IMG/VR virus record: IMGVR_UViG_3300017971_002929
Span: 1 to 25,713 of that record
Strand: one strand, 5' to 3'
DNA from: a virus
DNA length: 25,713 nucleotides
The notes beneath the pieces are model-generated. The model searched no databases. It saw only the letters and a program-made list of their open reading frames with translations, and was not told where the DNA came from. The position numbers and the translations under genes are program-made. Positions 3,592 to 25,709 of this stretch are shown one piece after another; position 1 is the first letter of the stretch; every line of letters begins with the position of its first letter.

Positions 3592-3835
3592 AAATAGATG
3601 GAATATGCAGAGAGACAAAGATAAAGGATGCTATCTTTATCATAGCTGTCTCTCTTGTCCTTTCAGCACTTGTATATTTGAAGGTAGAGAGAAGGATATT
3701 GAAGAAACGCTAAGTATAAGCTCCAGAGAAGCAGCCGATTACTTAGGTATTTCAGTTCGTCATGTTAACAGACTCAGACAAAAGTACAGGGAATCTAAAA
3801 GAGTCCCTCAAGAGGAACAAGAGAGAGTTTATTGA
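3581..3835 (+). CDS. Cys-cluster plus helix-turn-helix protein (84 aa)
   Basis: Cysteines at residues 17, 23, 26 and 31 (CLSCPFSTC) form a probable metal site. Residues about 46-72 (ISSREAADYLGISVRHVNRL) form a helix-turn-helix of the MerR/excisionase-like or sigma-region type. A DNA-binding regulator or terminase accessory protein is likely. No clear SD precedes the ATG at 3581; an ATG at 3605 would keep the HTH but lose the first eight residues. Its 3' end overlaps the large-terminase frame by 74 bp if the latter starts at 3762. Confidence 0.65.
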   Translation: MSYENRWNMQRDKDKGCYLYHSCLSCPFSTCIFEGREKDIEETLSISSREAADYLGISVRHVNRLRQKYRESKRVPQEEQERVY

Positions 3836-5372
3836 GACATTCCTCACAATAAAAGACAAAGGGAGGAACATTGTACCGTTTAAGCTTAACCCAATTCAAG
3901 CGGATATGGCTACAACCCGTACAAACTCTGACATCTACGTTAAGCCACGTCAAGTGGGGGCTTCTGAATATTTTATTGCAGATGTACTATGTGAGACTGT
4001 CATAGTTCCAGGTACAAACTCGGTACTGATAGCTTATGAAGAAGAAACAACCAAACGATTACTGTCAAAGGCAGACTTCTTCTTCAACAGATTAGACGGG
4101 TACGAATGGGATGGATTACCCACAAGATACCATGATTCAGAATTCAAGAAAACCTTTAGATACTATGAGGAGCGTAATAACCCAAAGAGCAGTCAGTTTG
4201 CACCACCTAGCACTCTTTACATTGCTTCTGCTCGCTCTTTCGTTATGGCTCGTGGCGATGCCTACCATAACATTATTGCAGACGAGTTCGCTTTTTGGCC
4301 TTACCCAGATAAACTTGTAGAGGTATTAGGTGGAAGAACACCAGATAGCAGAATCATCATATTATCCACCCCAAATGGGGAAGAGAACCAATTCTGTGAA
4401 ATGTACAGGACGGCCTGTGAAAAGATGCTTACAAACGAGAACGTCTACACGCCACACTTCTACACATGGCTACAACATCCCGAATACGTTCTGTCACCTG
4501 ATGATACTCTTACACTATCCAAAGATAGGGTGTCGCCTCTTGAAGACATCACCCCAGAAGAGTATGCTCTAATGGAAGGTGTGTGGCAAGCGTCTGAAGA
4601 ACAAATAAGATGGAGAAGATATAAGATAGCTGAGGTAGAACAGTTGCGTCGTATGGGGGAAACCCGTGTTCTGTTTTCTCAAGAGTTTCCAGAGGATGAC
4701 ACAACCTGTTTTATTACCTTTGGAGATATGGTATACGATGGGGAAATCCTCGCAGAAAAACTCAAAACCGCTTTCCCTGCTCCACATCATATGTTTAATG
4801 TTGACATTTGGGAGTTACCCCAAGAAGGACAAAAATACCTGATATCTGTAGACCCAGGAGTAGGTAAACAATCTATGACAGCTATCACTGTGTGGAGGTT
4901 TGAATTCGATGAATCTGGTGATGAGAAGGCAATACATTGCGCCACCTGTTGGGGGCTTTATGGAGCAGAACGAACCAATGATTGTGCACGTAATCTCGGT
5001 AAATTCTACAACTGGGGAACAATATCTACAGAAGCAAACATTGAAACCCTTGCCATACTCCTTAAAGGCTACCCCAATCTCTACAGGCGTAGAGACCTCC
5101 AGACTGGAAAGCCTACTTTGGATATAGGTTGGGTAACTACAGCCAAAACGAAACCTATTATGGTAAATGAACTGATGATGATGTTACCTAACATGGAAAT
5201 CCATGATGAACGCATTATCAAAGAAATAAGAAACATGAGATATGATAACAATGAGCGAGTAAGGTCTGCTGGTTTTGATGACCTTCATGATTCTGCTGCT
5301 ATTGCTATGATTACTCGCCAGTCCAGACCTATGACCACTGGACTTATCTTTAATTACGGGAGGAAGAAATAA
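3762..5372 (+). CDS. terL: Terminase large subunit (536 aa)
   Basis: This is the packaging motor: an N-terminal ATPase and a C-terminal RNase H-like nuclease that translocates and cuts phage DNA at the portal. Visible motifs are a deviant Walker A, KPRQVGAS, at residues 61-68 (no Lys before Ser, as in some terminases), Walker B IIADE at 171-175, and the coupling motif LSTPNG near 200. The nuclease acidic residues follow: D364 in SVDPG, E in TEAN, and the DDLHDSAA cluster at 506-513. Length is typical. The start is uncertain: the ATG at 3762 lacks an SD and sits 74 bp inside the upstream gene, yet the family-like sequence begins only about 20 residues in. Confidence 0.93.
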   Translation: MLTDSDKSTGNLKESLKRNKREFIETFLTIKDKGRNIVPFKLNPIQADMATTRTNSDIYVKPRQVGASEYFIADVLCETVIVPGTNSVLIAYEEETTKRLLSKADFFFNRLDGYEWDGLPTRYHDSEFKKTFRYYEERNNPKSSQFAPPSTLYIASARSFVMARGDAYHNIIADEFAFWPYPDKLVEVLGGRTPDSRIIILSTPNGEENQFCEMYRTACEKMLTNENVYTPHFYTWLQHPEYVLSPDDTLTLSKDRVSPLEDITPEEYALMEGVWQASEEQIRWRRYKIAEVEQLRRMGETRVLFSQEFPEDDTTCFITFGDMVYDGEILAEKLKTAFPAPHHMFNVDIWELPQEGQKYLISVDPGVGKQSMTAITVWRFEFDESGDEKAIHCATCWGLYGAERTNDCARNLGKFYNWGTISTEANIETLAILLKGYPNLYRRRDLQTGKPTLDIGWVTTAKTKPIMVNELMMMLPNMEIHDERIIKEIRNMRYDNNERVRSAGFDDLHDSAAIAMITRQSRPMTTGLIFNYGRKK

Positions 5373-7021
5373 TGGCACAATTCACACCTTCAGAAGTGAT
5401 GTCTAAGTGCCAAGAGCTAAAGAAGTCATGGAATGTCCGCAACCGCAAGTTTAAGGAATGGTACGAAGTTCTAAGGTTAGTAGACCAATTAGAAGAGAAG
5501 AACAAAGAAACCTACGTATCGAATGACCCACGTACCTTTTATAACTTAGCCAAGCATTTATTAACACCTTCAATCATTCCGCATAAGTTCCCGATAGAAG
5601 GACTTACACCCAATGAGATTGACGCTACTTCTAAGCTGGAGGCACAGATAGAGAAAGAAGCTTGGCAACGACTTGAAAAGTCTTATAGACGAAGTGGTAA
5701 ACAATCTTGGGTTGGTTACTTAGTTGGCTTAATCTTAGCCTTCGGTTGGTATAACGTTCAAGTTACCGCTGATAACAGCGGTTTCTATGCTGATATATGG
5801 CACCCTGCCGAAACATTCCAAAGCTATTCCCCAGACCCAGAAATAGGTCTTGTTGAAGTAGCCCACATATACGAAATGTCTGTAGCAGCAGCCCGTAAGA
5901 AAGCCAAGGTGCAAGAGTGGAACGTTAATCTACCGCAAGTGGGGAAGGTTAAGTTATTCGATTACTGGTTTATTGATGAAGACGGTGACGTGTCCCATAC
6001 CATAGTTTTAGACGGTAAGTTTGTAGTAAAACCATACAAAGACACTAGGTTTGACCGTATCCCTGTGGTATGTGGTGCCGTAGGAGGTTTACCTGACTTA
6101 GGTGAAGTTGACTCTAAATGGCAAGAACACTATGGGGAAGCTCTAGTAGCCGTTAACGAAGATGTCTACAAAAACTCTGACAGGTTGGCATCTTTCCTTC
6201 AGCAAGCCGTAAAAGAATCAACGGAACCTAAGTGGTTAGAACTCTCTCAAGGGACTACCATATTAAAACCAGAGCACTTTTACTCTGGTGCTATTTTTAG
6301 AGGGCAGCCTGGGGATTCGGTCACTGCCCTACAGCCACCTCCAATTCCCCCAGAGTTGATACAACGTATCTTCTCATATGAGCAAGATAAGCAGAAAGCC
6401 TCATTTTCGCCACTGATGTTTGGTAACATCCAATTCCAAGTGGCTGCATACACCCTGTCCCAGATGGCTCAGGCTGCCCAACAGGTTCTAAGACCATACC
6501 ATGAATCCGTGATGAATGTTTTAACAGAGATAGACAACATGTGGTTGAATCAAATGAGAGCTAAGGGAATTAAACCAAGGGGCGTTACTCTACCTAAGAA
6601 TATTCCTGATGATATAGAGATGGTAGTGGATTACCCCATATCAATCCCAGGTGACCTAATCAACCGCATCACATCAGCTAAGATGATATCACCTTCGGTA
6701 GAGATATCCCCAGAGACCACAATGGAGTTATTCTTCCCAGAGGTGAAAAACACGTTAGCAGAACAAGGACGTGTACGTAGTGCTAAGGCTCTTAACAACG
6801 CCATTGGACTATCCGTTAACCAAGTACGAGCCTATCGTATTGCTGCACAGGAAGCCCGTAGACGCAACGATGAAGAGACAGCTAAATTATACGATATCGC
6901 TGCTGATGCTGTTTTGTCTCAGTTAGAGGCCATAGCAGTAACCGAAGAAGAGAAACAGAGAGGCACAAGACCAAACCCTACGATGATGCCTTCACTTGGA
7001 GGTGGTAATGAACGGGGTTAA
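5372..7021 (+). CDS. Portal protein (549 aa)
   Basis: Portals form the dodecameric ring at one capsid vertex through which DNA enters and leaves. The call rests on position (its ATG overlaps the terminase TAA by one base), length near 550, and composition. The N-terminal part is helical; a mixed alpha/beta middle carries repeated Trp/Tyr (GWYNVQV, DIWHPAETF); a long central helix region with PPPIPPELIQRI and FSPLMFGNIQF resembles portal stem and crown segments. A helical Ala-rich C-terminus ends in PSLGGGNERG. An SD (GGAGG) precedes the ATG. No catalytic motifs are expected. The portal subfamily could not be assigned. Confidence 0.85.
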   Translation: MAQFTPSEVMSKCQELKKSWNVRNRKFKEWYEVLRLVDQLEEKNKETYVSNDPRTFYNLAKHLLTPSIIPHKFPIEGLTPNEIDATSKLEAQIEKEAWQRLEKSYRRSGKQSWVGYLVGLILAFGWYNVQVTADNSGFYADIWHPAETFQSYSPDPEIGLVEVAHIYEMSVAAARKKAKVQEWNVNLPQVGKVKLFDYWFIDEDGDVSHTIVLDGKFVVKPYKDTRFDRIPVVCGAVGGLPDLGEVDSKWQEHYGEALVAVNEDVYKNSDRLASFLQQAVKESTEPKWLELSQGTTILKPEHFYSGAIFRGQPGDSVTALQPPPIPPELIQRIFSYEQDKQKASFSPLMFGNIQFQVAAYTLSQMAQAAQQVLRPYHESVMNVLTEIDNMWLNQMRAKGIKPRGVTLPKNIPDDIEMVVDYPISIPGDLINRITSAKMISPSVEISPETTMELFFPEVKNTLAEQGRVRSAKALNNAIGLSVNQVRAYRIAAQEARRRNDEETAKLYDIAADAVLSQLEAIAVTEEEKQRGTRPNPTMMPSLGGGNERG

Positions 7022-10000
7022 TATAGGTACACCTGAAGAACGAGCACAGGTAAAAACAGAGTTAGAAGCTGGGCGTAAGCTTATGCACCCTATCGAACTG
7101 ATGGGTGCAGGTACGACCTATTCCCCTTACGAGGGGTTTGAGATTGATAAGACTATAACCCATCGTGAGTTGCAGGAATCCACTAAGACCCGTAAACTTA
7201 TTGAGGACAAGTACAGAACTGCTCAATCTCAATTTCGAATTCGTGTAGATGTAGACCCATTTGCCTACGTTTTTGGTAAAGACTGGGGTGACCCAGCACG
7301 TAAGCAGAAACGACAGGAAATAGAGGACTTAGCTGCCCAAATAGATGTAGCGGTGGCCTCTGAACAACAGGCGTTAGCTCGTCACTTAGCTTTAACATAC
7401 GCCTCCCAGTACATGGAACTTGGGATATTTGAGAACGTAGATGAACTCATGCAGTATTGGGGTTTAGATGACTCCTCTAGAACGTTTGCCCAAACTATAT
7501 GGAATAACTTTGCTCCTGTGGCTGGAAAGAAAGCTGGGCAACTAGACGAAGCTGTTAAATTACTCCAAGAGAGACCAACAGCACACCCAATGTCCGTAGA
7601 AGACTCCACAACGTCTGAGATACTCAAAGCTTTATCTACTTATCCACAGTTGGAGCTTACTGGTAGTTTACAGGCTTTAGGTGCTGATGGACTACGTGAG
7701 TTATTTGATACGGCTGGTTTAGACACCCAGTATCTTGACGAATACATACAAACTGCTCGTGGTCACTGGGCTACTCTAGATGAACAATGGCGAGACATAC
7801 GGGAGAATTATGAAGCCTACAGATTAGGACTTAAAACTCCCGAAGTATTGAATCTGTCTATTATGGAGCAACTCAAGTTAGCGTGGAAACAACCTGCTCT
7901 TGCTATGGTTGAATTACTTGATAACTATTTTGAGTACTGGGGTAGACCCTTTGCGTTCATAGCAGCCAATGTTTTAGACCCTCATAGGGGTGTAGCAGCA
8001 TTAACTGGTAAGAGCCCATTCGGTGAAACCACATGGAGTGGAGAACTAAAACGACTCCAAGGGGAACACATGTCTGAGGGGTTAAACTGGTGGATGGCTG
8101 CTGGCCATGCTTTTGATGACTGGGAGCAAAACTGGGTAACTAAACTGGGCTTGGAGATAGTAGGAGACCCGCTAACATGGTTTGGATTTAATATATACAC
8201 TAAGATAACCAAACCTATTGGGTGGCTTCATAGAACTGTTAGTGCTGCTGAGAAGGGCTTCATAGAAACAATGGATATCCCCTTCTTAGCATTACGTAAA
8301 GGTTGGGAATCTGTAGGTAAAACTACCTTCCAGAGAGCAATGGAACGCACCTCACAGGCAACCGTTAATATGTTAAGAGCAACCACTAAGTTCTCTAACC
8401 TACAGGATTTAGCTCGTATTACTCCAAACCAGTTAAAAGAGACGATGACTGCTGCCTACTCTGCGTTTCAAAACAAGCCTCAGATGGGTGGCCATACCTA
8501 CCTGCATCAATTCGGTGCGGATGTACATGATGCTATCCATAGATACATTCCAAGGGAAGAGGTAGAAGAACTCTTATCTAATATGAACCCATTGGTAGAT
8601 TACACCACCCGTGAGATGGAAGAGTTCGTCATGACTAAAACTCATGAGGTTAACGAACTCATAGATGGTATTGTAGGTAAATCTATTACCCCAGATGATG
8701 CCGTTTTGCCAATGTTGCAAATCCTAGGAGATTTTAGTGAGCGCAACATGCAACAGGTAAGAAGATTCCTACGTGGTGTACAAGATAGGGAATACGCACT
8801 ATTTGAGAAGCTCCTTGAATTTGATTCTACCAAGAGTGGAATGTTAAATTTTCTCAAGACCATGAGGGAAACATACGTGAGTAACATGAGCTCTAAGGTG
8901 GCAGCCCACCGCTCTCGTTACGGTATGATGGCTGCTATGCAAAACTCTATAGACTCAGCCGTAACCGTACTCTGGAGGAACTCTATTGAGAAGTGGCTCG
9001 TGCTCCCTGTAGCTCGCCAGATGTTACTCACAGCAAACTACGGTACCTTCAATATGTTTGAGTCTTTATTCCGTAGCGCTTTCTCAGGATATGGTTTATG
9101 GGGTAAGGCTGCTGCTGGCAGAGAAATTGTAGAGGAAGCAGAGCTTATCACTAGAGAGCTAATGAATGCCCCCCATGAGTTCGCTGAGAGCATAGTCTTT
9201 GAGCTACCCGCTCGTGGTGAGTTAAGTATTGCTGCTCGTGGTGAAGGCATACTACCTCTCATGACCACAGCTAATCTACCAAGTTGGCTCCCAGCACCAT
9301 TCGGTGGTAAAACCCTCACAGTGCCACGAAAGATAGGTGAGTACGAGATACCATTCTTAGGTGGTAAGAGAGTATCCATGTATGACTGGAACCAGTGGTT
9401 TAACCGCTTGGGTGAACAGCACCGTGCTTACACCTACATCCAAATGCACAAGCGTAAGATGTGGGAAATGTTCCCAGATGATATGAATATGATAGCAGAG
9501 GTTATACCTCAGCCACTAAAGTATGCTGATTTCAAAACTCTATCCCGTAAAGATATAGATGGTATTAACAGGTCATTAGAGAACCGTATACCCCTTGGTT
9601 CAAACTATGTTGATGACCTCCACTGGGAAAGAAGTATCTTAGAACGTAAGAAGCTAACCCAAGATACCCAAGAGCTTCTTAACCAAGTTAGGGCTGTAGA
9701 CCAAGACATTAAAGACTTCATATTACAGGAGGTACGGGCTGGTAACGTCAACAGTGGTAACGTGAGAGAGTTCGTAGATGAAGCCGTAGATGCCTATTAC
9801 ACCAACTATATTATGAAGATAGACATGTACAAGGAGTTAATGAGGTCGGCCACCGCCCAATTAGACGATTTCGTGCCACAGTCAGCAGATGAACTCATGG
9901 TGATGATTGGTAACGTAGACACCCTATTAAACGATATCTTACCTCGCTCCTGTACTGAATACTGGTCAGCAGTTACCCGCAAAGGCCATCGTATAGTTAA

Positions 10001-13000
10001 AGTATCTAAAGTGGAGAAGTTACATGCAGGGGCTCGTGATGAAATTTTAGGGTATATAGATGATGCTGTGACACAAGCACGCACTATGAAACAGAGATTA
10101 GAACAAGGTCTAAGGTTAATCCCAGATAAGACTAAGAGAGATTCAGCACGTGCCCTTATGAACAACTGGGAAGAATACATTGTCAACCTGAGAACCGTGA
10201 GAGAACGGGTATTTGCTACAATAGATGCTTACACATCCACCCATAGAGCTCCAGGTTCACGTACATTGGAAGGATGGAGAGCAGCACTCAAAGCTAGTGA
10301 ACGTATCTGGGATGATTACTGGAGGCAAATAGCCCAAATACCACGAACAGAGCACGCTCTGAACCTTGCTCAAGATGTGGTGCCTAACGTTCAATCTCAG
10401 ACTAAACGATTGTTAGTGAATGACATAGCAAAGTTGTTTGGTGCCACTGGGGAATCCATACGGGATAACCTTATATTTGCAGAAACCCGCACCATGATGG
10501 GTAAACCCCAATTTCAGGCTACCGTATACGAAAGAGCCTTGAAAGCAGCCAAACAACAGGGTAAGATGCCAGCAGAGATAGGTTTCTCATGGGAACGCAT
10601 TGGTGAGGTATACGATGATATCTTGAGAGGTATGCAGGTAGACCCACAGGTAGCTTCTCGCTTTACTCCTGCTGTTGAAGAGCTTCGCCACTTTGCCAAC
10701 CAGTACGAACGTTTGTACAATACAAAGGCAATAGACCCAGATGAATACTTCCGTGTTCAGAAGCATATCTCAGATGTAAGCGATAACATGAAGAAGCTGC
10801 CCATGTTCAGGAATGAAGTACCTGTAACCCAACCTGGATTCTACACGAAAGAGCTTAGGTTCAAACGCCCTTGGCAGATGAACCGTAAGGAATTCAAAAG
10901 GGAACATAAGAAGTACATGGAGCTTGCTCAGCAGAGTGAGCACTATGACGTTAGATTCTCTGATGTGGGTGATACCACTGTAACTACTGAACACATAAAA
11001 GAAGTTTGGGGTGAGGTTGATAACCACCACTTCTTCCTGAAAGATGATACAGGGAGGTCTCTAGGTGAAATCTCCTTACACGTTTTCCACGACTATAAGA
11101 TTATGGACGTGGGTTGGTTAGGGTTAAACCCAAACAGTAGAGTAACCGCTATAAGAGATGCTCTTAGTATTATTCGTGACTACACCCCAGAAGGATACAA
11201 GATTGTTGCGGATGTGAACAACTTCTCAGGACAGCTTATTGAGAAGTTAGAGAGGCGTGGTATTATACGTGTGAAGGAGAGACTTGGGGGTGAGTTTAAA
11301 CCACCAAAACCCGACGAGCAGTTTGCTTCTGTTGAAATAGAATTTATTACAGACCCGTCCAAAACAAATCTGTTAAAGAAACCTCGAATCGTTGAGGAAG
11401 ACTTAACATATGAGCAAAAGATACAGAGCAGGATTAGAGAGTACCTTGAAACTGAGTCTGTATCTTTTGAACCTTCTATGGAAATGAGAAGTGACTTCGT
11501 TCTTGCTGGGGATGAAACAGTATCCACTCAATTTGACCGTTACCCCAACATGCCAGATAGGTTAAGGGAACTGGCAGAAGTCAACCCAAGCCTTATGGAT
11601 GATGCAGAAGGTTTGTTTGAAGCTTGGCAGCGGAGAGCTATAGATGAAGGTTGGCTACCGAAATCAGGTCGCACTAAGAGAGAGGTATGGGTGGAGCCAA
11701 GAGAAGGTACAGAGATAAGGTTTGAGGCCACCCCAGAGTGGACAGCTAAACGTGATGCTGCTGCTGAGGCTGCTACCAAGGAATACCACCTTACCTTCAC
11801 AGACTACACCTCCCAGAATATGATGGATTCCTTTATGAAAGGTATCTATCCATTCTGGATATACGAATCCCGTAGATACCCGTACCTGTGGCGTACTGGT
11901 ATACGCACCCCAGGTGTTCCACTCTCTATGGGTCGCTTCATGGACTACACAGAAGGTGGGTACGTTAATATACCTGGGATGCCAATAGACATAAATCCTT
12001 TCCGTGGTACAGTATTCATGGGTGGATTCAGACGTATGTTCATCCGTGACTATCCTGAATACTATGATGCTCCTGTGTGGGGAACATTCGCTGGTGTGAT
12101 GGATGCGTTTTCACGGGGTGGATTCTACCCAGGTGTACATATAGCTGCACCCCTAGCTTTCTTTGGCTCTAAGGTAGGTGCCCCTCAGATGTATGAGGTA
12201 TTACCACCTGCTTTCACCACGTTGTTCAGTTTCTACCAGAGTATAGACCCTTCCAGTGAGACCTCTCGATGGCTACGTGACCAAGTGATGTCTGATAGGT
12301 TCCGTGAGTACATGATAGAGCAAGAGCTCACTGACCTTGGGGTAGATGGTAACTATGTGATGGCTAAGAAGTCAATGGGTATAGAGCTAACAGATGATGA
12401 ACAGAAGCTCGTAGACCAAGCCATGAGAAAAGTGTCTTTACTCCAAATCCCCTTTGTGCAGATGGGACTGTTTAGGTTCCGTCCAGAGGATAGAGATAAA
12501 GCTTATGAGATGGCTCTTGAAGTTAAAGAGAAGCTCACTGGTATCCCCGTAGAGCAATGGAAACGAGAGAGTAGGCTATCTGATATCACAGGGGTTCGTA
12601 CTTCAGATAGGTTCCCCCTATCCCCCTTGGAACAGAAGATACTGTTTGAAGCTGAAGAAGTTGAGCGGTGGAATAAGAACTTCGTTGCACCTCTACTTCC
12701 CTCAGAGCAGCGCAAAGAGGAAGAACGAATCATCATGTATCAATACGAAGTGAGTAAGATATATGAACAGGCTCGTACAGAAGGATTTCCAGACTACTCT
12801 GGTAAGCAGGACATAGTAAGTGAGGAGTTCTTAGAAGAGGAGTTTAGGGCTGGTCGTATCACAGGAGCCCAATACGATGCCATGTTAGAGGAGTTGGTAG
12901 AGGCTACGATTGAACGTGTTAACGCCTTAGCTGATACCGATATGTTTGCTGATGTGCCTAAGACACGTGAGGAGAGAGTGTCTCGCTACTTAGAGAGAGA

Positions 13001-13553
13001 TGAACCTGTACCCATATGGCACCCAGCACAAGAACTCCTTTGGGAGTACAGAGAGATAAAGCCTGAGATGGCATTTGATTATGAGCTAGATACATGGCGC
13101 ATTGATTGGGAAACTTACTTTGCTCGTGTTGATGCTATTATGAATGCACTTAGTGAAGAGAACCAGAGAAGTTTCTTAGAGAACCTACAATACGAGTGGA
13201 CTGATACCAAGCGACTTCGCTGGAGGATAAGTAAAGAATATATACGACCCTATTACAATACACGGGTAGCCCTCTTAGATACGTATTCGGTTGAGGAGCG
13301 TAAGCTCATACAGGAATACTCTCTGGCTAATTCCGCTAGAAGAGAAGAAATTAGAAACGTTACTGATTCTGAAGGGTTGAAGCTGATAAGCAACTTTACT
13401 ACCAAGTTAAAGAACATACACCAGAACATGCGTGTTAACGACCCTGAGCTAGACGCATGGTTAAGGTTCTGGGGTATTGTGGATAGTAACAGGAGCAAGG
13501 AAGCTGAAACCATGTACTTAAGATTACTAAGTACCTACCAGGGGATAGGATGA
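7008..13553 (+). CDS. Giant virion-associated protein (2181 aa)
   Basis: One unbroken frame takes a quarter of the window. The ATG at 7008 has an ideal GGAGGT SD, preferred over an in-frame TTG at 6996, and overlaps the portal end. Visible regions, in order: charged helical N-terminus (1-320); amphipathic Trp-rich stretch with FAFIAANVL (about 320-400); hydrophobic segment near 658-705 (WLVLPVARQMLL); long helical middle (870-1280); acetyltransferase-like segment about 1340-1445; aromatic block about 1590-1760 (IYPFWIYESRRYPYLW, GVHIAAPLAFFGS); charged helical C-terminus. No muramidase or polymerase motif was recognised. Placement between portal and scaffold suggests a head-interior or ejected protein, comparable in size to large podovirus internal proteins or polyvalent proteins. 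That role is inference. Confidence 0.85.
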   Translation: MNGVNIGTPEERAQVKTELEAGRKLMHPIELMGAGTTYSPYEGFEIDKTITHRELQESTKTRKLIEDKYRTAQSQFRIRVDVDPFAYVFGKDWGDPARKQKRQEIEDLAAQIDVAVASEQQALARHLALTYASQYMELGIFENVDELMQYWGLDDSSRTFAQTIWNNFAPVAGKKAGQLDEAVKLLQERPTAHPMSVEDSTTSEILKALSTYPQLELTGSLQALGADGLRELFDTAGLDTQYLDEYIQTARGHWATLDEQWRDIRENYEAYRLGLKTPEVLNLSIMEQLKLAWKQPALAMVELLDNYFEYWGRPFAFIAANVLDPHRGVAALTGKSPFGETTWSGELKRLQGEHMSEGLNWWMAAGHAFDDWEQNWVTKLGLEIVGDPLTWFGFNIYTKITKPIGWLHRTVSAAEKGFIETMDIPFLALRKGWESVGKTTFQRAMERTSQATVNMLRATTKFSNLQDLARITPNQLKETMTAAYSAFQNKPQMGGHTYLHQFGADVHDAIHRYIPREEVEELLSNMNPLVDYTTREMEEFVMTKTHEVNELIDGIVGKSITPDDAVLPMLQILGDFSERNMQQVRRFLRGVQDREYALFEKLLEFDSTKSGMLNFLKTMRETYVSNMSSKVAAHRSRYGMMAAMQNSIDSAVTVLWRNSIEKWLVLPVARQMLLTANYGTFNMFESLFRSAFSGYGLWGKAAAGREIVEEAELITRELMNAPHEFAESIVFELPARGELSIAARGEGILPLMTTANLPSWLPAPFGGKTLTVPRKIGEYEIPFLGGKRVSMYDWNQWFNRLGEQHRAYTYIQMHKRKMWEMFPDDMNMIAEVIPQPLKYADFKTLSRKDIDGINRSLENRIPLGSNYVDDLHWERSILERKKLTQDTQELLNQVRAVDQDIKDFILQEVRAGNVNSGNVREFVDEAVDAYYTNYIMKIDMYKELMRSATAQLDDFVPQSADELMVMIGNVDTLLNDILPRSCTEYWSAVTRKGHRIVKVSKVEKLHAGARDEILGYIDDAVTQARTMKQRLEQGLRLIPDKTKRDSARALMNNWEEYIVNLRTVRERVFATIDAYTSTHRAPGSRTLEGWRAALKASERIWDDYWRQIAQIPRTEHALNLAQDVVPNVQSQTKRLLVNDIAKLFGATGESIRDNLIFAETRTMMGKPQFQATVYERALKAAKQQGKMPAEIGFSWERIGEVYDDILRGMQVDPQVASRFTPAVEELRHFANQYERLYNTKAIDPDEYFRVQKHISDVSDNMKKLPMFRNEVPVTQPGFYTKELRFKRPWQMNRKEFKREHKKYMELAQQSEHYDVRFSDVGDTTVTTEHIKEVWGEVDNHHFFLKDDTGRSLGEISLHVFHDYKIMDVGWLGLNPNSRVTAIRDALSIIRDYTPEGYKIVADVNNFSGQLIEKLERRGIIRVKERLGGEFKPPKPDEQFASVEIEFITDPSKTNLLKKPRIVEEDLTYEQKIQSRIREYLETESVSFEPSMEMRSDFVLAGDETVSTQFDRYPNMPDRLRELAEVNPSLMDDAEGLFEAWQRRAIDEGWLPKSGRTKREVWVEPREGTEIRFEATPEWTAKRDAAAEAATKEYHLTFTDYTSQNMMDSFMKGIYPFWIYESRRYPYLWRTGIRTPGVPLSMGRFMDYTEGGYVNIPGMPIDINPFRGTVFMGGFRRMFIRDYPEYYDAPVWGTFAGVMDAFSRGGFYPGVHIAAPLAFFGSKVGAPQMYEVLPPAFTTLFSFYQSIDPSSETSRWLRDQVMSDRFREYMIEQELTDLGVDGNYVMAKKSMGIELTDDEQKLVDQAMRKVSLLQIPFVQMGLFRFRPEDRDKAYEMALEVKEKLTGIPVEQWKRESRLSDITGVRTSDRFPLSPLEQKILFEAEEVERWNKNFVAPLLPSEQRKEEERIIMYQYEVSKIYEQARTEGFPDYSGKQDIVSEEFLEEEFRAGRITGAQYDAMLEELVEATIERVNALADTDMFADVPKTREERVSRYLERDEPVPIWHPAQELLWEYREIKPEMAFDYELDTWRIDWETYFARVDAIMNALSEENQRSFLENLQYEWTDTKRLRWRISKEYIRPYYNTRVALLDTYSVEERKLIQEYSLANSARREEIRNVTDSEGLKLISNFTTKLKNIHQNMRVNDPELDAWLRFWGIVDSNRSKEAETMYLRLLSTYQGIG

Positions 13554-17873: not shown

Positions 17874-19663
17874 CGGACGAATATTCTAACGTACCAGATT
17901 TATACGTAGCTGCCCAAGAAGATATAAGTATCAACGGTAAACTCTACACCAAGCTTATCTGCATGGGTGATTGGGGTCGCATGGATAAGAACAAAATCAT
18001 GGGCGACTCCATAGCTGCTGGCTTTGACTTCGGTACAGATACAGTCCAAGAGATAATAGAGGGTAACACTTACGACGCTATGTTGATGGCCGATATGACT
18101 GCTGAGGTAAACGATGACGATGCTGATGGAACAGAAGACTCAAAGGTACCTGGGTTAAAATACGAGGTATGGGTATCCAAGAGAAAGGTTATACAGGACT
18201 CAGTTGAGTTGACTACAAACCTTGCCAAGCTTAGGGGGGATGAATTATTCTTGGTAGCAGATACCACTGGGGAACAGCAACGACTTACTGGTACACTAGA
18301 TGGAGAGTTAACTGCTGGTGAGACAGTTACGGGCAGTAGCTCTGGTGCCACAGGTAAGTTTGTCTACCAGAACGTAGCTAGTGGTGCTGGTTATATAGTT
18401 ATAGAGAGTATAAATGGTACATGGGAAACCAGTGAGGATGCCGAAGGTGCATCCTACAAATGTGGGTCTATCACATCAATAGATGACGAGCATTATCTTT
18501 ATGAGCTAGATGGAACCAATACCCATAACATATATGAACACCATCGTATCCAGTCTTTATTACAGGCTAATCGTGTTATTTGTGTGGATAAACTACCCGA
18601 TAACTCCGAAACCAAACATACTTACAGCGGGACTGTAAACGATACCGATGACCAAGCTATTTTCGGTGTTGTTACTTATGTCTTTGAAGACCCAAGTGTT
18701 ACCAGTAACGAAGAAGCAGAAGCTTCTGCAACGGCTATGTTAACCCATTTTCAGTCTGATGCATTCGGGGGGTATATAAAAGCTCCTATGAATTGTGGTC
18801 AGGAGATGCATGATATAGTTAAGGTAACGGATTCTCGTGGTGGATGGACTGGTGACGATGTTATTGAGGGTAGAGTTGGTGGTATAATTAGGGAATTTAA
18901 GGCTTGGGAAGGAGTTTATACCATAGAGTTAACTATTGGTGGGCTATGGGTTCCTCCTCCACCGCTAGACCTCCCTGCTCCAACACCAACACCTCCTCCT
19001 GTTACTTGGGACAAACCACCTCACCCTTGGCCTGGGGAAACTGATACAACTAAACCTACACCAACTAAGACTGATGACCACTTAAGACAACAACTACCAC
19101 CCGTAGTTCCTCCTCCAGAGACATTTACTCCATACTCAAGGAGGGAATACGAAGAGGCGTGGAAATACCGCCCAGTGGAAACCTTAGAGATGGCTCCGCT
19201 ACCAGAAGGCATCCCTGGGTTTGGTGAAGCACCATTGGAAGCTCCTGTGATGATACCCCCAGAGGGCGTAGAGTTAGGTAGAGTACGAATACCACGGGGC
19301 ATACAGATAAGTGAGGAATTGGCTCAGTCAATAGAAGCTCAAAAGGCTTACGAAGCTGTCAGAGGAGTGGAACCTTATGCTGGTATGGTTAGACAGCCTA
19401 AAACACGCTGGCAAGCTTGGCAATATGCAGCTACAACTCTGTTAGGTATGACGACTATGTTAGCTGGTTTGTTTATGCCAGCACTGGCTCCATCACTAGC
19501 TCAACTTACCGCTAGAGTAGCAACCGTTGGTGGTATAACGGCTGGCGCTACCGTAGGCGTATCCGCTCAGGAGGCTGTAACACCACTAGCTCCATCCCCA
19601 GAGCAAGTCACAGCAGAAACCTTTAGTGGTGATGAATGGTGGAGAGGAGGTAGTTTGTGGTAA
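17870..19663 (+). CDS. Hub-like tail protein, proline-rich linker, hydrophobic C-terminus (597 aa)
   Basis: It starts within the stop of the previous gene (ATGA). Residues 1-365 are beta-rich and hub-like, beginning EYSNVPDLYVAAQEDISING. An inserted Gly/Thr-rich segment near 140-200 (GELTAGETVTGSSSGATGKF) resembles a small beta repeat. Residues about 366-430 are strongly proline-rich (LPAPTPTPPPVTWDKPP). A helical part follows, then a hydrophobic stretch near 525-570 (YAATTLLGMTTMLAGLFMPA) able to span or insert in a membrane. A tail protein that touches the host envelope or is ejected is plausible. Homology is inferred from fold-like features only. Confidence 0.6.
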   Translation: MTDEYSNVPDLYVAAQEDISINGKLYTKLICMGDWGRMDKNKIMGDSIAAGFDFGTDTVQEIIEGNTYDAMLMADMTAEVNDDDADGTEDSKVPGLKYEVWVSKRKVIQDSVELTTNLAKLRGDELFLVADTTGEQQRLTGTLDGELTAGETVTGSSSGATGKFVYQNVASGAGYIVIESINGTWETSEDAEGASYKCGSITSIDDEHYLYELDGTNTHNIYEHHRIQSLLQANRVICVDKLPDNSETKHTYSGTVNDTDDQAIFGVVTYVFEDPSVTSNEEAEASATAMLTHFQSDAFGGYIKAPMNCGQEMHDIVKVTDSRGGWTGDDVIEGRVGGIIREFKAWEGVYTIELTIGGLWVPPPPLDLPAPTPTPPPVTWDKPPHPWPGETDTTKPTPTKTDDHLRQQLPPVVPPPETFTPYSRREYEEAWKYRPVETLEMAPLPEGIPGFGEAPLEAPVMIPPEGVELGRVRIPRGIQISEELAQSIEAQKAYEAVRGVEPYAGMVRQPKTRWQAWQYAATTLLGMTTMLAGLFMPALAPSLAQLTARVATVGGITAGATVGVSAQEAVTPLAPSPEQVTAETFSGDEWWRGGSLW

Positions 19664-22173
19664 CTTCTGATACATGGCGTTTCATAGAGAGCGTAGCTAA
19701 AGCCCTGTCTAAGAATGAAGCTTTTCTCAGGCTTTTGAATAGAACCCACTCACACTCTCACGGTGAGAATTCCTCTGACCCAATAGAAGATGCTATGTAT
19801 GATAGCATCTTTGATGCCCACACCATACTCAAGGCTGATACTGATGACACCCCTGTGGCTCTAACTGTGAACGAGCAAGAGGTAGTCGGTAGGTTGACTG
19901 GCGGTAACATAGATGGTATTGCTATAGGAATATCCGACGATAACATGGTTCAGGTGGATGGCTCTCCCAACTCAGGTGAGGTAGCTCTGTGGACAGCCAA
20001 CGGGCTAGAGGGTAGAGCTATAGGTGTAAACGATGATAATATACTTGAGGTTGATGATGCAACCGTTATCACTGGTGATTACGCTAAATTCACCGCTAAT
20101 GGTTTAGAAGGTCAACAGGCATCTCAGGTGATGGCTGACCTTAGCGGTGAGGCTGGGTTTACCTTTGATTGGGTTGGGTGTATTCTGGAGAATGTTGAGG
20201 CTATTAAGGGTTTAACTGATGACACTCTCGACATTGTGGGTAAGCGTACTGACAGTGACGACAGTGTGAAAATCTCTACCCCTGGGGAAGCAATAAACTA
20301 CGCTGATACCGTGAGAGTAACTTTCCAAGGTAGAGCAGCGGAAGCTGATGTTGTTTGGACAGACTGTGAACACACTGGATTAAAGTTAGGTGGTGACCTA
20401 AATGCTGATTCCCATAACATAACCAGCCTTGAGCAAGCAATAACAGATAACCACATAGTCACTGTAGATGGTAGTCCTAACGATGACGAGTACGCCCGCT
20501 GGACTGCGAGTGGGTTGGAAGGTAGAACGGCTGCTGAGGCAAAGACAGATTTGGGTTTCATGACTGACTTAGTAGACGATGCTACCCCTCAACTAGGTGG
20601 TGACCTTGACCTAAATGGTAACAATATTGACTTCCCCACTACTGCCGATATATCCGATTGTTTAGATGAAGACGATTTGGTTTCGGATTCTGCTACTGCG
20701 TTGGCCACTCAACAGAGCATCAAGGCGTACGCAGATGGGAAGATTACGACTCACGAAGCAGCAGCAGACCCACATACAGGATACGTGAAGGAGAGTGAGT
20801 TCACCGCAAAAGGTGATGTGTTGGGTGGAACTGGTGCAGGTACGTTAGCTGCACTTGGAGTAGGCACTGACGAATACTGTCTTATTGCTGATAGTGGAGA
20901 GACCACAGGACTAAACTGGGGTAAGAGGGCAACCATCACAACTGCCTCTGCAACCTACTATGTAGATGGCACTAATGGTAATGACTCCAATCCAGGTACC
21001 CAAGCTGACCCATTTGCAACTATTCAAGGTGCGTGGGATTCTCTCCCAGACATTATAGCACATGATATTACTATTATTGTAGAAGACAATGGGCGCAAGA
21101 CTGGTACTGCTGATGGAAGAGTTGCTAACCATCTTCAAGATGACACCAACGCTCAGTTCGCAGCAGGAGACGTTGGCAAGACAGTATTTAATGTAACTGA
21201 TGGGAACTTTGCCACTATTACTGCTTACAATGATACAGGTGATGTGACGTTAGATACTGACATCTTCGACAATGGCAATGAAGACTACGTGATATACGCA
21301 ACTCCGTACAGAGAAGATGTAGACATCAGTGAGAGATACGTTATGGCCTCAGTAACCATTAGAGGTGAATACTACTGGCAGGGAGACTGTGAAGCAAATG
21401 TAGGTGGTGCAGGAGAAATAAAGGATACAGGTGCCTTTGGTGATGTAGCAGTTGGAGATAAAGTAGTAGTCTTAGACCTCTCTGGTGCAGACGGTAGAGC
21501 AGTCCAAGGTGAACTCTGCACTGTAGACGATATCTCAAACGCACCCGATAGGATAGGAACTACTGGTTCGTTAACTCCCACTACCAGTTGGATTTACTGG
21601 ATAGTCCGCACTGAGATATCAGGTAGTGACGATGGTACAGATGGTGGTACGGCACGGGATAATTGCTTTCTATTGACGTCAATAGATAATATTACGGTTC
21701 AAGGTTTTTATTTGACGTATTCGGATATGTACGCATTTGATACATTTAATTGTCGTAAACTTATAAGCTATTATATGGTATTTGAAAATTGCGACTATGA
21801 TTTGAGAGTAAAAGGGCATAGTTGTTTTGATGAGTCTGATTTTATATATTTCAGTGGGTCGTATGGTTGCGTCGTTGAGCAATCAAGTTATATGACACCT
21901 TGGTATTGTATGTATGAGGGTTGCACTTATGGAATAGATGTATATAGGAATAGTGGGGCAATACCAAGATATAGCTTTATAAAGGGTTGTAGTTATGGGG
22001 TGATAGTTCAGTTGTCGGGTGCAGTTGATTTTACTAGGTGTACTATAGATGCAGGAACAACTAACGGTATTTATGCTTTTAGGGCTGGATTCGTTTTTAC
22101 TTCTAAGATTACTAATAATGCTACTACACCAAAGACTCCCGCAGCAGCTAGTGACCCTGCTTGGGTAACGTAA
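19657..22173 (+). CDS. Tail fibre with beta-helix C-terminal domain (838 aa)
   Basis: A GTG start follows a GAGGAGG SD and overlaps the previous gene by 7 bp. The N-terminal 290 residues contain three related motifs of the form VDGSPN...WTANGLEGR (near 100, 135 and 270) and LGGDL(D/N) repeats, typical of fibre shafts. Then come HEAAADPHTGYV and a GDVLGGTGAGTLAAL segment ending in ADSGETTGLNW, a common fibre signature. YYVDGTNGNDSNPGTQADPF (about 433-452) opens a right-handed beta-helix that runs to the end. It likely binds, and possibly cleaves, host surface glycans. The last 500 bases are AT-richer than the rest. Confidence 0.85.
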   Translation: MVTSDTWRFIESVAKALSKNEAFLRLLNRTHSHSHGENSSDPIEDAMYDSIFDAHTILKADTDDTPVALTVNEQEVVGRLTGGNIDGIAIGISDDNMVQVDGSPNSGEVALWTANGLEGRAIGVNDDNILEVDDATVITGDYAKFTANGLEGQQASQVMADLSGEAGFTFDWVGCILENVEAIKGLTDDTLDIVGKRTDSDDSVKISTPGEAINYADTVRVTFQGRAAEADVVWTDCEHTGLKLGGDLNADSHNITSLEQAITDNHIVTVDGSPNDDEYARWTASGLEGRTAAEAKTDLGFMTDLVDDATPQLGGDLDLNGNNIDFPTTADISDCLDEDDLVSDSATALATQQSIKAYADGKITTHEAAADPHTGYVKESEFTAKGDVLGGTGAGTLAALGVGTDEYCLIADSGETTGLNWGKRATITTASATYYVDGTNGNDSNPGTQADPFATIQGAWDSLPDIIAHDITIIVEDNGRKTGTADGRVANHLQDDTNAQFAAGDVGKTVFNVTDGNFATITAYNDTGDVTLDTDIFDNGNEDYVIYATPYREDVDISERYVMASVTIRGEYYWQGDCEANVGGAGEIKDTGAFGDVAVGDKVVVLDLSGADGRAVQGELCTVDDISNAPDRIGTTGSLTPTTSWIYWIVRTEISGSDDGTDGGTARDNCFLLTSIDNITVQGFYLTYSDMYAFDTFNCRKLISYYMVFENCDYDLRVKGHSCFDESDFIYFSGSYGCVVEQSSYMTPWYCMYEGCTYGIDVYRNSGAIPRYSFIKGCSYGVIVQLSGAVDFTRCTIDAGTTNGIYAFRAGFVFTSKITNNATTPKTPAAASDPAWVT
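21670..21685. repeat. Perfect 16-bp palindrome in tail-fibre gene
   Basis: CTATTGACGTCAATAG reads the same on both strands. It lies in frame within the fibre gene at the point where the sequence turns AT-rich. It may be chance, a recombination footprint or a regulator site. It encodes part of LLTSIDN. Confidence 0.7.
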
Positions 22174-22688
22174 TGATAATATTATACTTGAAGGACTCGC
22201 CAGATATTAATACCTGTACCTTCTTACAGGCTATACCAGATGTGATGGTGTTGGAAGAGAGCGGAAGCCAAGCGTTTATAGAAGGTCAGCCTGAACCAGT
22301 TATTAACGACTTAACAAAAGCTGGTTGGTTTGCTGTTCCTGAGCAGTATATAGAACCTGAGGGTGATTTAGATGGTGATATTATCCCTAGAGAGGTTTGT
22401 GAGCTTAACTTGGTGCATTTTACTCCAGATAACTTACCGCACTCTCAGTTTGTGGGTAAACTTATTGCCGTTAATCTAAGTGCAATCAAACCCGCTACGG
22501 TTCGTAGGGTATTCTATGGAGAGACTTACGATGTGAATTGTTTGGTTGGCGAGAATGCAGCACAATTATGGATAAGCGGTAAGTTATTGGTTGATGATTT
22601 TGTAATAGTAAGTTATATCACTGAGGTACCATTTGGTACAAAAGTTAATTTGCCTATACTGGTGGATAAAATAAACAAGACATGGTAG
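22173..22688 (+). CDS. Hypothetical protein following tail fibre (171 aa)
   Basis: Not recognised. The ATG at 22173 overlaps the fibre TAA by one base; a TTG at 22161 is an unlikely longer start. The product starts MIILYLKDSPDINTCTF and contains a beta-rich acidic middle (YIEPEGDLDGDIIP) and a C-terminal strand-rich part ending PILVDKINKTW. Its position directly after the fibre suggests a fibre chaperone, fibre tip or baseplate attachment protein. No chaperone motif was identified. Like the fibre end, it is AT-richer than the capsid genes. Confidence 0.7.
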   Translation: MIILYLKDSPDINTCTFLQAIPDVMVLEESGSQAFIEGQPEPVINDLTKAGWFAVPEQYIEPEGDLDGDIIPREVCELNLVHFTPDNLPHSQFVGKLIAVNLSAIKPATVRRVFYGETYDVNCLVGENAAQLWISGKLLVDDFVIVSYITEVPFGTKVNLPILVDKINKTW

Positions 22689-23185
22689 ACTATCAATATA
22701 TACACATACCAAAGACTGGGGGTACGTCTATATCAAAAGTTCTCGGTGTGTACGCACACCATGAAGATGTGGTAGATGACCATAGGTTTAAGTTTGCTTT
22801 TGTACGCCACCCCGTCACACGGTTTGTATCAGGCTTTCACTATTGGAAACGTAATAGGGAGCTAACTCCAGAGGAGTTTATAGATAACCCAGAGTACGCC
22901 AAGTACTGGGAGAACTTAATCTTTAGACCCCAGTGGAAGTTTATTTGTGACCTTGATGGTACTGTCAAAGTCGATTTCTTAGGGAGGTTTGAAACACTTA
23001 ATTCTGATTGGGAGAGGTTATGTGGGGTAATTGGTTTACCATACGTAGAGTTGCCTTGGGTACGCAGGGGGGATTACCCCCAACCAAACTTGAATGATAC
23101 CCACTTGAAATACCTTTATAATCGTTACAAGAAGGATTTTGAAATATTTGGATATGAGGTGAGAGATGACACTAACAGAGTTTGA
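22682..23185 (+). CDS. Sulfotransferase, PAPS-dependent (167 aa)
   Basis: Sulfotransferases move a sulfo group from PAPS to a hydroxyl or amine. Both cofactor motifs are present: the 5'-phosphosulfate loop HIPKTGGTS at residues 8-16 (Lys11) and the 3'-phosphate motif FVRHPVTRFVSGF at 40-52 (Arg42, Ser50, with the usual eight-residue spacing). FLGRFETLNSDWERLC and a C-terminal YNRYKKDFEIFGYE match the ending of carbohydrate sulfotransferases of the Sulfotransfer_2 kind. It is shorter than usual (about 170 rather than 220 or more) but both ends look intact. It overlaps both neighbours, so it belongs to the late operon. Likely substrates are cell-surface or virion glycans; this is inference. Confidence 0.88.
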   Translation: MVDYQYIHIPKTGGTSISKVLGVYAHHEDVVDDHRFKFAFVRHPVTRFVSGFHYWKRNRELTPEEFIDNPEYAKYWENLIFRPQWKFICDLDGTVKVDFLGRFETLNSDWERLCGVIGLPYVELPWVRRGDYPQPNLNDTHLKYLYNRYKKDFEIFGYEVRDDTNRV

Positions 23186-24998
23186 GACTGCTCTACGGGT
23201 ACACCTTAAGGATAGCGGTACCACGTGGTCAGATGCAGAGCTAGACAGATGCATTTACCATGCTATAGCCGACCTATCTAGGTTTATCCCACGTGAGCAG
23301 GTATATGAATTAACTTTAGACTTCGATGAAGTCAGTAATGAATCGGTTACTACTGAGTCTGCACATGGTACGTATAAGGCGTTGGCCAATAAACCCATCA
23401 AATGGGATAGTGAGACCGTCACTACCACGGCTGGCACCACTACCTATACTAGAGATACCGACTACACCATAGACTATTGGAACGGTAAGATAACCACTAT
23501 CAGTGGTGGAAGCATGGCTGTGTCTACCGAGTACTACATTGATTACACTGTTGACCAGACTACCATAGACATCAGCAGCCTCACAGACTTAATCCGTGTA
23601 GACCGTGTTGAGTATCCAGTTGGTACACTACCACGACAGATGGTAGACTGTGATGTATTTGATGATAAGCTAACGGTTACGTTCTTCCCCCAGAGGGATG
23701 AAAGAGACCAGACTAACTTATTCGGTGGGAAGCATTTAAGGGTATATTACCACGCATACCATACCAACCCAACAGATAGTGCAGCGGGTTCACACCCACT
23801 GTTCTTGGATGAAGTGGTTGTGAAAGGTTCAGAGGCTTACTCATGGCTCATAGAAGCAGCCCAGTATGAGCATCAAGCAGTTACCGATTTAGCTAGTGCT
23901 CGTACAGAGCTTGGGAATATTTCCCATACCAACGTGGGTACGGCTCTGACTGCAATAGGAACAGAACTAGGGTTGGCTAACACTGCTCTTGATGACATAG
24001 GAGCTATAGGAGATACGGTACATGCTGCTGTTACTACAGCCTTAGCCCTCATTAACTCCAACCTAGATTCTACGGCTACACCACTTGGTGACGTAGCTGA
24101 TGGAGCTTCCCCTGACTATCATGCACTAGCTGATACAGCCTTAGATGCTGCTGCTACCCAGATTGGTGCAGCTTCTACGCCTTTAGGTAATGTTGCCGAT
24201 GGTCAGTCACCCGATTACCACGCTCTTGCTGATGCTGCACTAGACGCTGCCAACACAGAGCTAGACACACCATCTACCGCTACCACTGGAGATATAGACT
24301 TAGGTGAAACAGCACATACCGATGTAGAAACCTACACAACTGGTGCTACTGCTCCATCTATCAAGAAATACCTTGAGGATGGGGATGATACAATTACCAC
24401 TGTGAATGTTGGTGACCGTGTAGCTGAGATGTACATCCAGTACGCACAGGCTTCTAAGTGGATAGCAGATGAATTCCAAAGGGAGCGGGAGCTATACCTA
24501 CAGCAAGCTCAGATACGTGCCAACCTAGCCAACGGTTACTACAACGAATCAATGGGTAGGTTAGCCCAAGTCCAGAGGAAGATAGAGGAAGCCAACGCAA
24601 GGTCTAATCAGGGTTCCGTGTACGTCCAAGAAGCCAGAGAACGACTAGACCAAATAAACACTAAGATAAACGAGTCTAACGCTTATGTCACAGTGGCACG
24701 TGGGGCTGCTGAGGAAGCGAGAATGAGGTTGGCACAGATAGAAGCCATCGTTGGGGAAGCTAACGCTCGTATCGCTACTGCTAGGGGATATGCTGAGCAG
24801 GTTTCATTCTACCTGTACCAGATGGATAGGTACATAGCAGAAGCAGAATCTTATATCGCAGTAGCTCAAAGTAACTTTGCTCTTGCTGATAAATACCGTG
24901 ACATGGGTATACTAAGGCGTAATGAGTTCTGGGGGATACTCGCCAGTAGAGCACAGGGTAAAGTCCATCGTCATGCTACCTCAACATCCACAATATAA
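23166..24998 (+). CDS. Connector-like N-terminus fused to coiled-coil repeats (610 aa)
   Basis: The ATG has GAGGTGAG upstream and lies 20 bp inside the sulfotransferase gene. Residues 1-60 (LTEFETALRVHLKDSGTTWS, then CIYHAIADLSRFIP) resemble head-tail adaptor (gp6-like) helices. A beta-rich part continues to about 215. An Ala/Thr-rich helical middle includes two 33-residue repeats (PLG[DN]VADGxSPDYHALAD) at about 304-369. Residues 465-576 are four exact 28-residue coiled-coil repeats. The His-rich end is KVHRHATSTSTI. It probably joins portal to tail and extends a helical stalk. It is the last gene before the terminator. The adaptor assignment is moderate; the repeats are certain. Confidence 0.7.
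   Translation: MTLTEFETALRVHLKDSGTTWSDAELDRCIYHAIADLSRFIPREQVYELTLDFDEVSNESVTTESAHGTYKALANKPIKWDSETVTTTAGTTTYTRDTDYTIDYWNGKITTISGGSMAVSTEYYIDYTVDQTTIDISSLTDLIRVDRVEYPVGTLPRQMVDCDVFDDKLTVTFFPQRDERDQTNLFGGKHLRVYYHAYHTNPTDSAAGSHPLFLDEVVVKGSEAYSWLIEAAQYEHQAVTDLASARTELGNISHTNVGTALTAIGTELGLANTALDDIGAIGDTVHAAVTTALALINSNLDSTATPLGDVADGASPDYHALADTALDAAATQIGAASTPLGNVADGQSPDYHALADAALDAANTELDTPSTATTGDIDLGETAHTDVETYTTGATAPSIKKYLEDGDDTITTVNVGDRVAEMYIQYAQASKWIADEFQRERELYLQQAQIRANLANGYYNESMGRLAQVQRKIEEANARSNQGSVYVQEARERLDQINTKINESNAYVTVARGAAEEARMRLAQIEAIVGEANARIATARGYAEQVSFYLYQMDRYIAEAESYIAVAQSNFALADKYRDMGILRRNEFWGILASRAQGKVHRHATSTSTI
24558..24893 (+). repeat. Four 84-bp coding repeats (28 residues each)
   Basis: The encoded units begin RLAQVQRKIEEANARS, RLDQINTKINESNAYV, RLAQIEAIVGEANARI and YLYQMDRYIAEAESYI, each 28 residues (four heptads) with no insertions between copies. 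A preceding unit starting YLQQAQIRANLANGYY looks one heptad shorter. DNA identity is lower than protein similarity, so the duplication is old or selected at the protein level. Confidence 0.85.
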
Positions 24999-25153: not shown

Positions 25154-25260
25154 ATTGTCCTCTCAGTTAGTTCATTAAACATTACACGGAGGAAAACCCA
25201 CCAGAAGACCATAGCAAAGTTAAGCCATAGTGGGTCTTCTCGCTTCCAGTCCCAATCCAT
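25129..25260 (-). CDS. Micro membrane peptide (43 aa)
   Basis: The ATG overlaps the TAA of the HAD-like gene by one base (TAATG), implying coupled translation. The product MDWDWKREDPLWLNFAMVFW and onward has a Trp/Phe/Val-rich hydrophobic segment at about residues 11-28, after a charged start and before a charged tail (NELTERTIWR). It is probably a single-span inner-membrane peptide. Tiling with its neighbours supports it. No homologue was recognised. Confidence 0.5.
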   Translation of the reverse strand: MDWDWKREDPLWLNFAMVFWWVFLRVMFNELTERTIWRILLWP

Positions 25261-25709
25261 TACGATACCAGTATTGTAGGTATACCCTCTCTTCTAAGGT
25301 ACTCTACTATGATTGGGTTGTTGTCGAAGTGAACATCAATAATTATTTGATTTTTAATCACCTCATACTTACGTTTGGCTGCTTCGATTGAGGCAGCCTC
25401 ATACGATAAGTTCGCCCAATCAATGGTATCATCAGCATCTACCCAAAATACGGGTAGAAAGATACCGTGACGTTGTAACCACTGTAACATTGTATGCTGT
25501 CCATAAGGTTTACACGATGTTACAATATACCCAGTGTCTCTATCACCCAAGAACAGGTAAGGGTTAAGCTTAGGTTTCATGTGGTCAAATATGTCATTTA
25601 CCAGTTCCTCTAGGAAGCTATTCTCTACGTTAAGGTAACGTAACAGCTTGTATTTCCACTTAGTTCCATCTTCTGTTAGCACACCATGTAAGTCAAAGCT
25701 TATGTTCAT
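25260..25709 (-). CDS. HAD-like hydrolase with altered motif I (149 aa)
   Basis: HAD phosphatases use DxDGx[TV] in motif I. Here ISFDLHGVLT (residues 3-12) keeps the nucleophile Asp6 but has His8 where the acid/base Asp normally lies. Motif II is probably VTSC with Ser, motif III Lys in KRKYEVIK, and motif IV HFDNNP near residue 127. About 150 residues is a minimal HAD core with a small or no cap, near phage polynucleotide- or 5'-nucleotidase-like sizes. The start near the window edge looks complete; its SD is only partly visible. It may be a phosphatase with changed chemistry or a non-catalytic binder. Confidence 0.75.
   Translation of the reverse strand: MNISFDLHGVLTEDGTKWKYKLLRYLNVENSFLEELVNDIFDHMKPKLNPYLFLGDRDTGYIVTSCKPYGQHTMLQWLQRHGIFLPVFWVDADDTIDWANLSYEAASIEAAKRKYEVIKNQIIIDVHFDNNPIIVEYLRREGIPTILVS

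Follow-up and report, generated by a model that had tools for sequence, protein, structure and literature searches.

The window analysed here, the 25,713-nucleotide stretch covering positions 1 to 25,713 of IMG/VR record IMGVR_UViG_3300017971_002929, carries among its virion genes a small gene resembling PAPS-dependent sulfotransferases, which raises the question of what such an enzyme would do for a phage and how it came to lie there. A sequence-only reading had proposed an ATG-initiated frame of 167 amino acids at positions 22682-23185 of the forward strand, and we confirmed it; IMGVR 3300017963_000105, a second record, carries the frame at 100% identity. Both cofactor motifs named in that reading are present, HIPKTGGTS and RHPVTRFVS, as is the family-like C-terminus, YKKDFEIFGY being typical among homologues (Table 1). 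No signal peptide or membrane helix was evident in the protein (maximum 19-residue hydropathy 0.49), so the enzyme should act in the cytoplasm, with nucleotide- or lipid-linked precursors, or virion proteins, as its presumed targets.

Table 1. Features of the sulfotransferase locus and reference genes in the window
Feature	Coordinates	Strand	Size and evidence
Terminase large subunit (TerL), used for finding relatives	3762..5372	+	PHROG_2 1.8e-14; 41% identical in relative G002
Fibre/spike-like protein, right-handed beta-helix C-terminus	19657..22173	+	838 aa; Pfam Beta_helix, PHROG
Upstream neighbour, function not assigned	22161..22688	+	175 aa; stop overlaps sulfotransferase start by 7 nt
Sulfotransfer_2 family sulfotransferase gene	22682..23185	+	167 aa; Pfam, PHROG, AF2 pLDDT 92
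5'-phosphosulfate-binding motif HIPKTGGTS, residues 8-16 (predicted)	22703..22729	+	Lys11 position: K 83/88, R 5/88
His27, candidate catalytic base	22760..22762	+	H in 81/88 homologues
3'-phosphate-binding motif RHPVTRFVS, residues 42-50 (predicted)	22805..22831	+	R42, P44, S50 88/88
Family C-terminal motif YKKDFEIFGY, residues 149-158	23126..23155	+	Alignments; partly selected by pattern YKKDFEI
Downstream neighbour, probable head-tail adaptor, Ig-like insert and coiled-coil tail	23166..24998	+	610 aa

Profile searches bore out the assignment to the sulfotransferases: the protein matched Pfam Sulfotransfer_2 (PF03567) at 1.2e-14, scoring 55.5 bits where the cut-off is 22, and PHROG_3347 ('Galactose-3-O-sulfotransferase') at 3.4e-18, well beyond what chance would give. 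Because the Pfam match spans residues 28-159 only and leaves HIPKTGGTS outside, the 5' PAPS motif rests on alignments and on the fold. The NCBIfam search returned nothing, and a single-sequence search of the PDB with phmmer gave no match, heparan sulfate 6-O-sulfotransferase included; the family profile reached that enzyme's structure, 5t03, only at 0.0053.

Two motif scans supplied the homologues: of 105 stretches from viral contigs 80 were kept, and of 128 from genomes likewise 80. Throughout the resulting 88-row alignment, Arg42, Pro44 and Ser50 are invariant and Lys11, predicted to hold PAPS, is lysine or occasionally arginine, so that none of the residues singled out in the sequence-only reading has been lost. 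His27 is likewise conserved, although His26 and His27 are not always separable in the alignments, and Glu104 is glutamate in 86 of the 88 rows. Phe38, Arg42, Pro44 and YKKDFEI lie inside one scan pattern and were thus partly selected, whereas Lys11, His27, Ser50 and Glu104 lie outside the patterns, and their conservation is therefore independent evidence.

An AlphaFold model built from this alignment (pLDDT 92, pTM 0.87) adopts the predicted PAPS sulfotransferase fold. When compared with the PDB by Foldseek, the model found sulfotransferases in all of places 1 to 14, the best being heparan sulfate 6-O-sulfotransferase 5t03 (E 3.3e-3; TM by query length 0.66, with 0.60 for 4ndz), and the matches also include 3-O-, 2-O- and N-sulfotransferases. 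Against viral models, 24 matches passed 1e-3, mostly named sulfotransferases, from phages (phiRSL1, P-SSM7, SIO1 gp5.1) and giant viruses; SIO1 gp5.1 bears no functional name. Polysaccharide sulfotransferases are characterized by a lysine, a base that is either histidine or glutamate, and a serine carried by the helix of the 3' motif (review, PMC11625862). From the fold, the Lys and Ser residues and the candidate His base, the protein is very likely a catalytically competent, minimal glycan sulfotransferase.

We then considered the surroundings of the gene. The overlap with both neighbours is real, amounting to 7 nt upstream (22682-22688), where start and stop share the sequence ATGGTAG, and 20 nt downstream (23166-23185). 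The downstream ATG lies inside the sulfotransferase gene behind a ribosome-binding-like GGTGAG, and this start is credible because the N-terminus aligns with that of a relative (MTLTEF with MNLTET). The 610-aa product, kept in relatives, has a partial match to PHROG_807 (9.8e-7); its N-terminal 244 residues were modelled by AF2 at pLDDT 89, and the model is weakly like phage neck and portal-tail proteins (TM below 0.4), leading us to name it tentatively a head-tail adaptor or neck-like protein. On the other side, the 838-aa protein matches Pfam Beta_helix at 3.5e-5, just below the cut-off, and a PHROG tail protein at 7.8e-5. The sulfotransferase gene thus stands between fibre-like and neck-like genes. 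Its placement inside a virion-gene operon is supported, but since the downstream gene weakly resembles head-tail adaptors, we assign it to the adsorption/neck end of this run of genes rather than to the "tail module" first proposed. Promoter- and terminator-like sites did not exceed shuffled expectation, and no separate promoter for the gene was found. That it overlaps virion genes hints at action late in infection, as judged from gene order alone; in phages, the order of genes tells of timing no less than of function.

The window is a fragment of the same virus as IMGVR 3300017963_000105, from which it differs at 11 of 25,713 bases, none of them in the sulfotransferase gene. That record, from a metagenome (3300017963) that we take to be hypersaline lake sediment, is 44,374 bases long and has a terminal repeat of 123 bases, indicating a complete, circular genome of about 44.25 kb. 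The metagenome could be traced as far as its contributor, David Valentine (PMC7449369). Alignments of the adaptor, the capsid and the terminase, used as queries, found approximately 40 related contigs. A relative, 3300031578_000123, has a 127-base terminal repeat and is 41% identical in TerL, 41% in the portal, 47% in the major capsid candidate, 40% in the family A DNA polymerase and 36% in the downstream 610-aa gene; it is without the sulfotransferase. The contigs delineate an apparently undescribed family of viruses of about 42-44 kb, closing circularly, whose members are about 40% identical in TerL and 43-54% in the capsid candidate; for TerL, the closest phage records share no more than about 25% identity. 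A search for hosts with the TerL-family profile across 400 Chloroflexota and 392 Planctomycetota genomes produced weak generic matches only.

Several other genes were observed in passing. Between the portal and scaffold-like genes, positions 6996-13553 hold a 2185-aa gene. It shares about 30% identity across 636 residues with a gene of 1893 aa in relative G002, and its product may be a virion protein that is internal or ejected. On the minus strand, 25260-25709 encodes a 149-aa protein that is HAD-type phosphatase-like by eye (DLHGVL motif) and is without a Pfam match. In G001, beyond the window (stretch L016, 4133-6957), a gene resembling class II glutamine amidotransferases (GATase_6 8.1e-5, below the cut-off) directly follows a 589-aa gene that by eye is phage amidoligase-like; pairs of amidotransferase and amidoligase have been reported in OM43 phages (PMC10580990).

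The related viruses also bear on how the gene came to its site. Sulfotransfer_2 is absent from all 40 related records, fifteen of which are at least 38 kb long and hence near full length, so that a single member of the family carries the enzyme. Those relatives whose sequence extends upstream of the adaptor-like gene have one of several unrelated small genes next to it. In one of them (L189), a 117-aa gene directly abuts the adaptor-like gene, its TAA overlapping the adaptor ATG by one base, and this gene is 37% identical over 89 residues (2e-14) to residues 5-92 of the 175-aa upstream gene; the two neighbours adjoin there as an empty site. Together with the absence from relatives, this identifies the sulfotransferase gene as an accessory ("moron") gene that was acquired into the virion operon, in its adsorption/neck portion. 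Codon usage is the same as that of the resident genes, with no foreign composition, so the insertion is either not recent or came from a donor of similar genome; neither foreign composition nor an own promoter is essential to an old insertion. Phylogenetic analysis gave the gene no well-supported neighbour, with viral and cellular sequences repeatedly mixed.

Homologues occur on more than 100 viral contigs. An enzyme of this kind in such a position had been thought unusual, which was not borne out: PHROG_3347 is a catalogued phage family, and the homologue lies between TerL and portal in L025, before the head-tail adaptor Ad3 in L027 and L037, and after TerL in L053, ruling out a placement beside virion genes unique to this virus. 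Among 112 neighbours scanned, sugar genes comprised heptose kinase/adenylyltransferase in four cases, epimerase of nucleotide-sugar type in three and GtrB-like in two; methyltransferase genes also adjoin viral homologues. A GT2 glycosyltransferase was found in 25 and an APS kinase in 10 of 50 contigs; these contigs differ in length, and the counts describe sulfotransferase-carrying contigs only. In L022 (3300009152_000356, 1828-2989), the sulfotransferase gene is directly followed, with an overlap, by one for APS kinase (PF01583 1.5e-15), and this phage may encode the final step of PAPS synthesis next to a PAPS-using enzyme. Elsewhere, homologues sit beside QueC/QueD/QueE/FolE-like genes of 7-deazaguanine synthesis (L007, 3019-8319; L096, 2981-4525), hinting at another role for some family members; QueE in L096 was called by PHROG (2.1e-47) and the remaining Que/FolE-like genes by eye. 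The cellular relatives examined lie within polysaccharide clusters. That of Halomonas maura (L107, 275-9232) combines CysD/CysN-like genes, two sulfotransferases, glycosyltransferases, Wzy_C and ManC in one run, which we infer to be a candidate gene cluster for mauran, the sulfated polysaccharide produced by this bacterium (PMC5852497).

Comparison with known systems places the protein more precisely. It shares its family by HMM with PHROG_3347, a phage accessory gene in the moron/auxiliary metabolic gene category, yet is shorter than that 219-position model, and the galactose 3-O specificity is for this protein a label only. Roseobacter SIO1 gp5.1, Ralstonia phiRSL1, Prochlorococcus P-SSM7 and Stenotrophomonas DLP6 give fold or sequence matches at 33% identity or less; the DLP6 gene is near DNA polymerase and UvsX, in contrast to the virion genes here. 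The heparan sulfate 6-O-, 2-O- and 3-O-sulfotransferases, the best PDB matches, have the PAPS-binding fold in common at 12-15% identity, whereas the viral protein is a bare catalytic domain. The H. maura enzyme, also Sulfotransfer_2, is about 32% identical and shares the motifs, but belongs to a cellular polysaccharide cluster that also encodes sulfate activation. Surveys have recorded phage sulfotransferases and described their role as unclear (PMC10580990, PMC8290583), and the literature searched yielded no phage sulfotransferase with an activity, phenotype or assigned function.

Polysaccharide is the best-supported substrate class, as suggested by the modelled fold, viral sugar-gene neighbours and cellular relatives, the evidence by association coming from other viruses and from cells at only 25-40% identity. 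No APS kinase was detected in the genome, nor any member of Pfam glycosyltransferase families 1 and 2; the enzyme thus stands alone and would depend on host PAPS and a host glycan. We give an even chance to the explanation that the acquired gene encodes a minimal cytoplasmic PAPS-dependent carbohydrate sulfotransferase that alters a host surface receptor late in infection. The enzyme would be translated late, together with virion proteins, take PAPS from the host and place sulfate on sugars of the envelope polysaccharide or of lipid-linked precursors. The surface, altered and more negative, would lose its role as a receptor; progeny would not be wasted on debris or on cells already infected, and rivals would be excluded. 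Both proposals of the sequence-only reading, sulfation of host glycans and superinfection exclusion, are plausible.

The enzyme might instead act on the particle, sulfating a sugar or tyrosine on the fibre, neck or another virion protein and thereby changing adsorption or stability. The overlapping position between fibre-like and neck-like genes and the packaging or neck genes beside homologues in the four other viral contigs speak for this. However, gene order mirrors timing as much as function, homologues elsewhere adjoin DNA polymerase or sugar genes, the top fold matches are glycan and small-molecule rather than tyrosyl-protein sulfotransferases, and a GT1/GT2 glycosyltransferase for attaching glycan to the virion is lacking; we regard virion modification as unlikely. 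Its specific form, in which an enzyme co-translated with fibre and neck proteins sulfates a virion component to give a sulfated tailed-phage virion, is rather improbable. Equally unlikely is an auxiliary metabolic role altering exopolysaccharide output of the host, or polysaccharide released after lysis, with no effect on the receptor: placement in the virion-gene run would leave little time for bulk polymer change, even though cellular relatives lie within polysaccharide clusters and environmental phage surveys count sulfotransferases among auxiliary metabolic genes (PMC8290583, PMC10829341).

A role in sulfating a small molecule, nucleotides or the bases of phage DNA, perhaps as protection from restriction, would accord with the QueE-like gene directly adjoining the homologue in L096, with the similar arrangement seen by eye in L007, and with reports of sulfotransferase-based nucleotide modification in phages cited in PMC10829341. 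By eye, this genome holds no Que/folE or base-hypermodification genes, only a dCMP deaminase, and because no such cassette was seen we rate this role as very unlikely. That the gene is a functionless passenger or encodes a pseudo-enzyme also seems highly improbable: its frame is intact, its conserved residues are complete, its codon usage is genome-like and its fold is confident despite less than 40% identity to any relative. In favour of a passenger, the gene occurs in one virus only of its family, and the two records differ at 11 positions that all lie elsewhere, which gives no variation in the gene from which to measure selection.

Phage sulfotransferases were already known, and the gene described here adds one more to PHROG_3347. 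As a small standalone enzyme with no sugar genes found alongside, an empty site in a relative, and homologues next to packaging or neck genes in four other viral contigs, it offers a clean test case. If enzymes of this type do alter host receptors late in infection, sulfation would join acetylation and glucosylation among the routes by which phages remodel the host surface.
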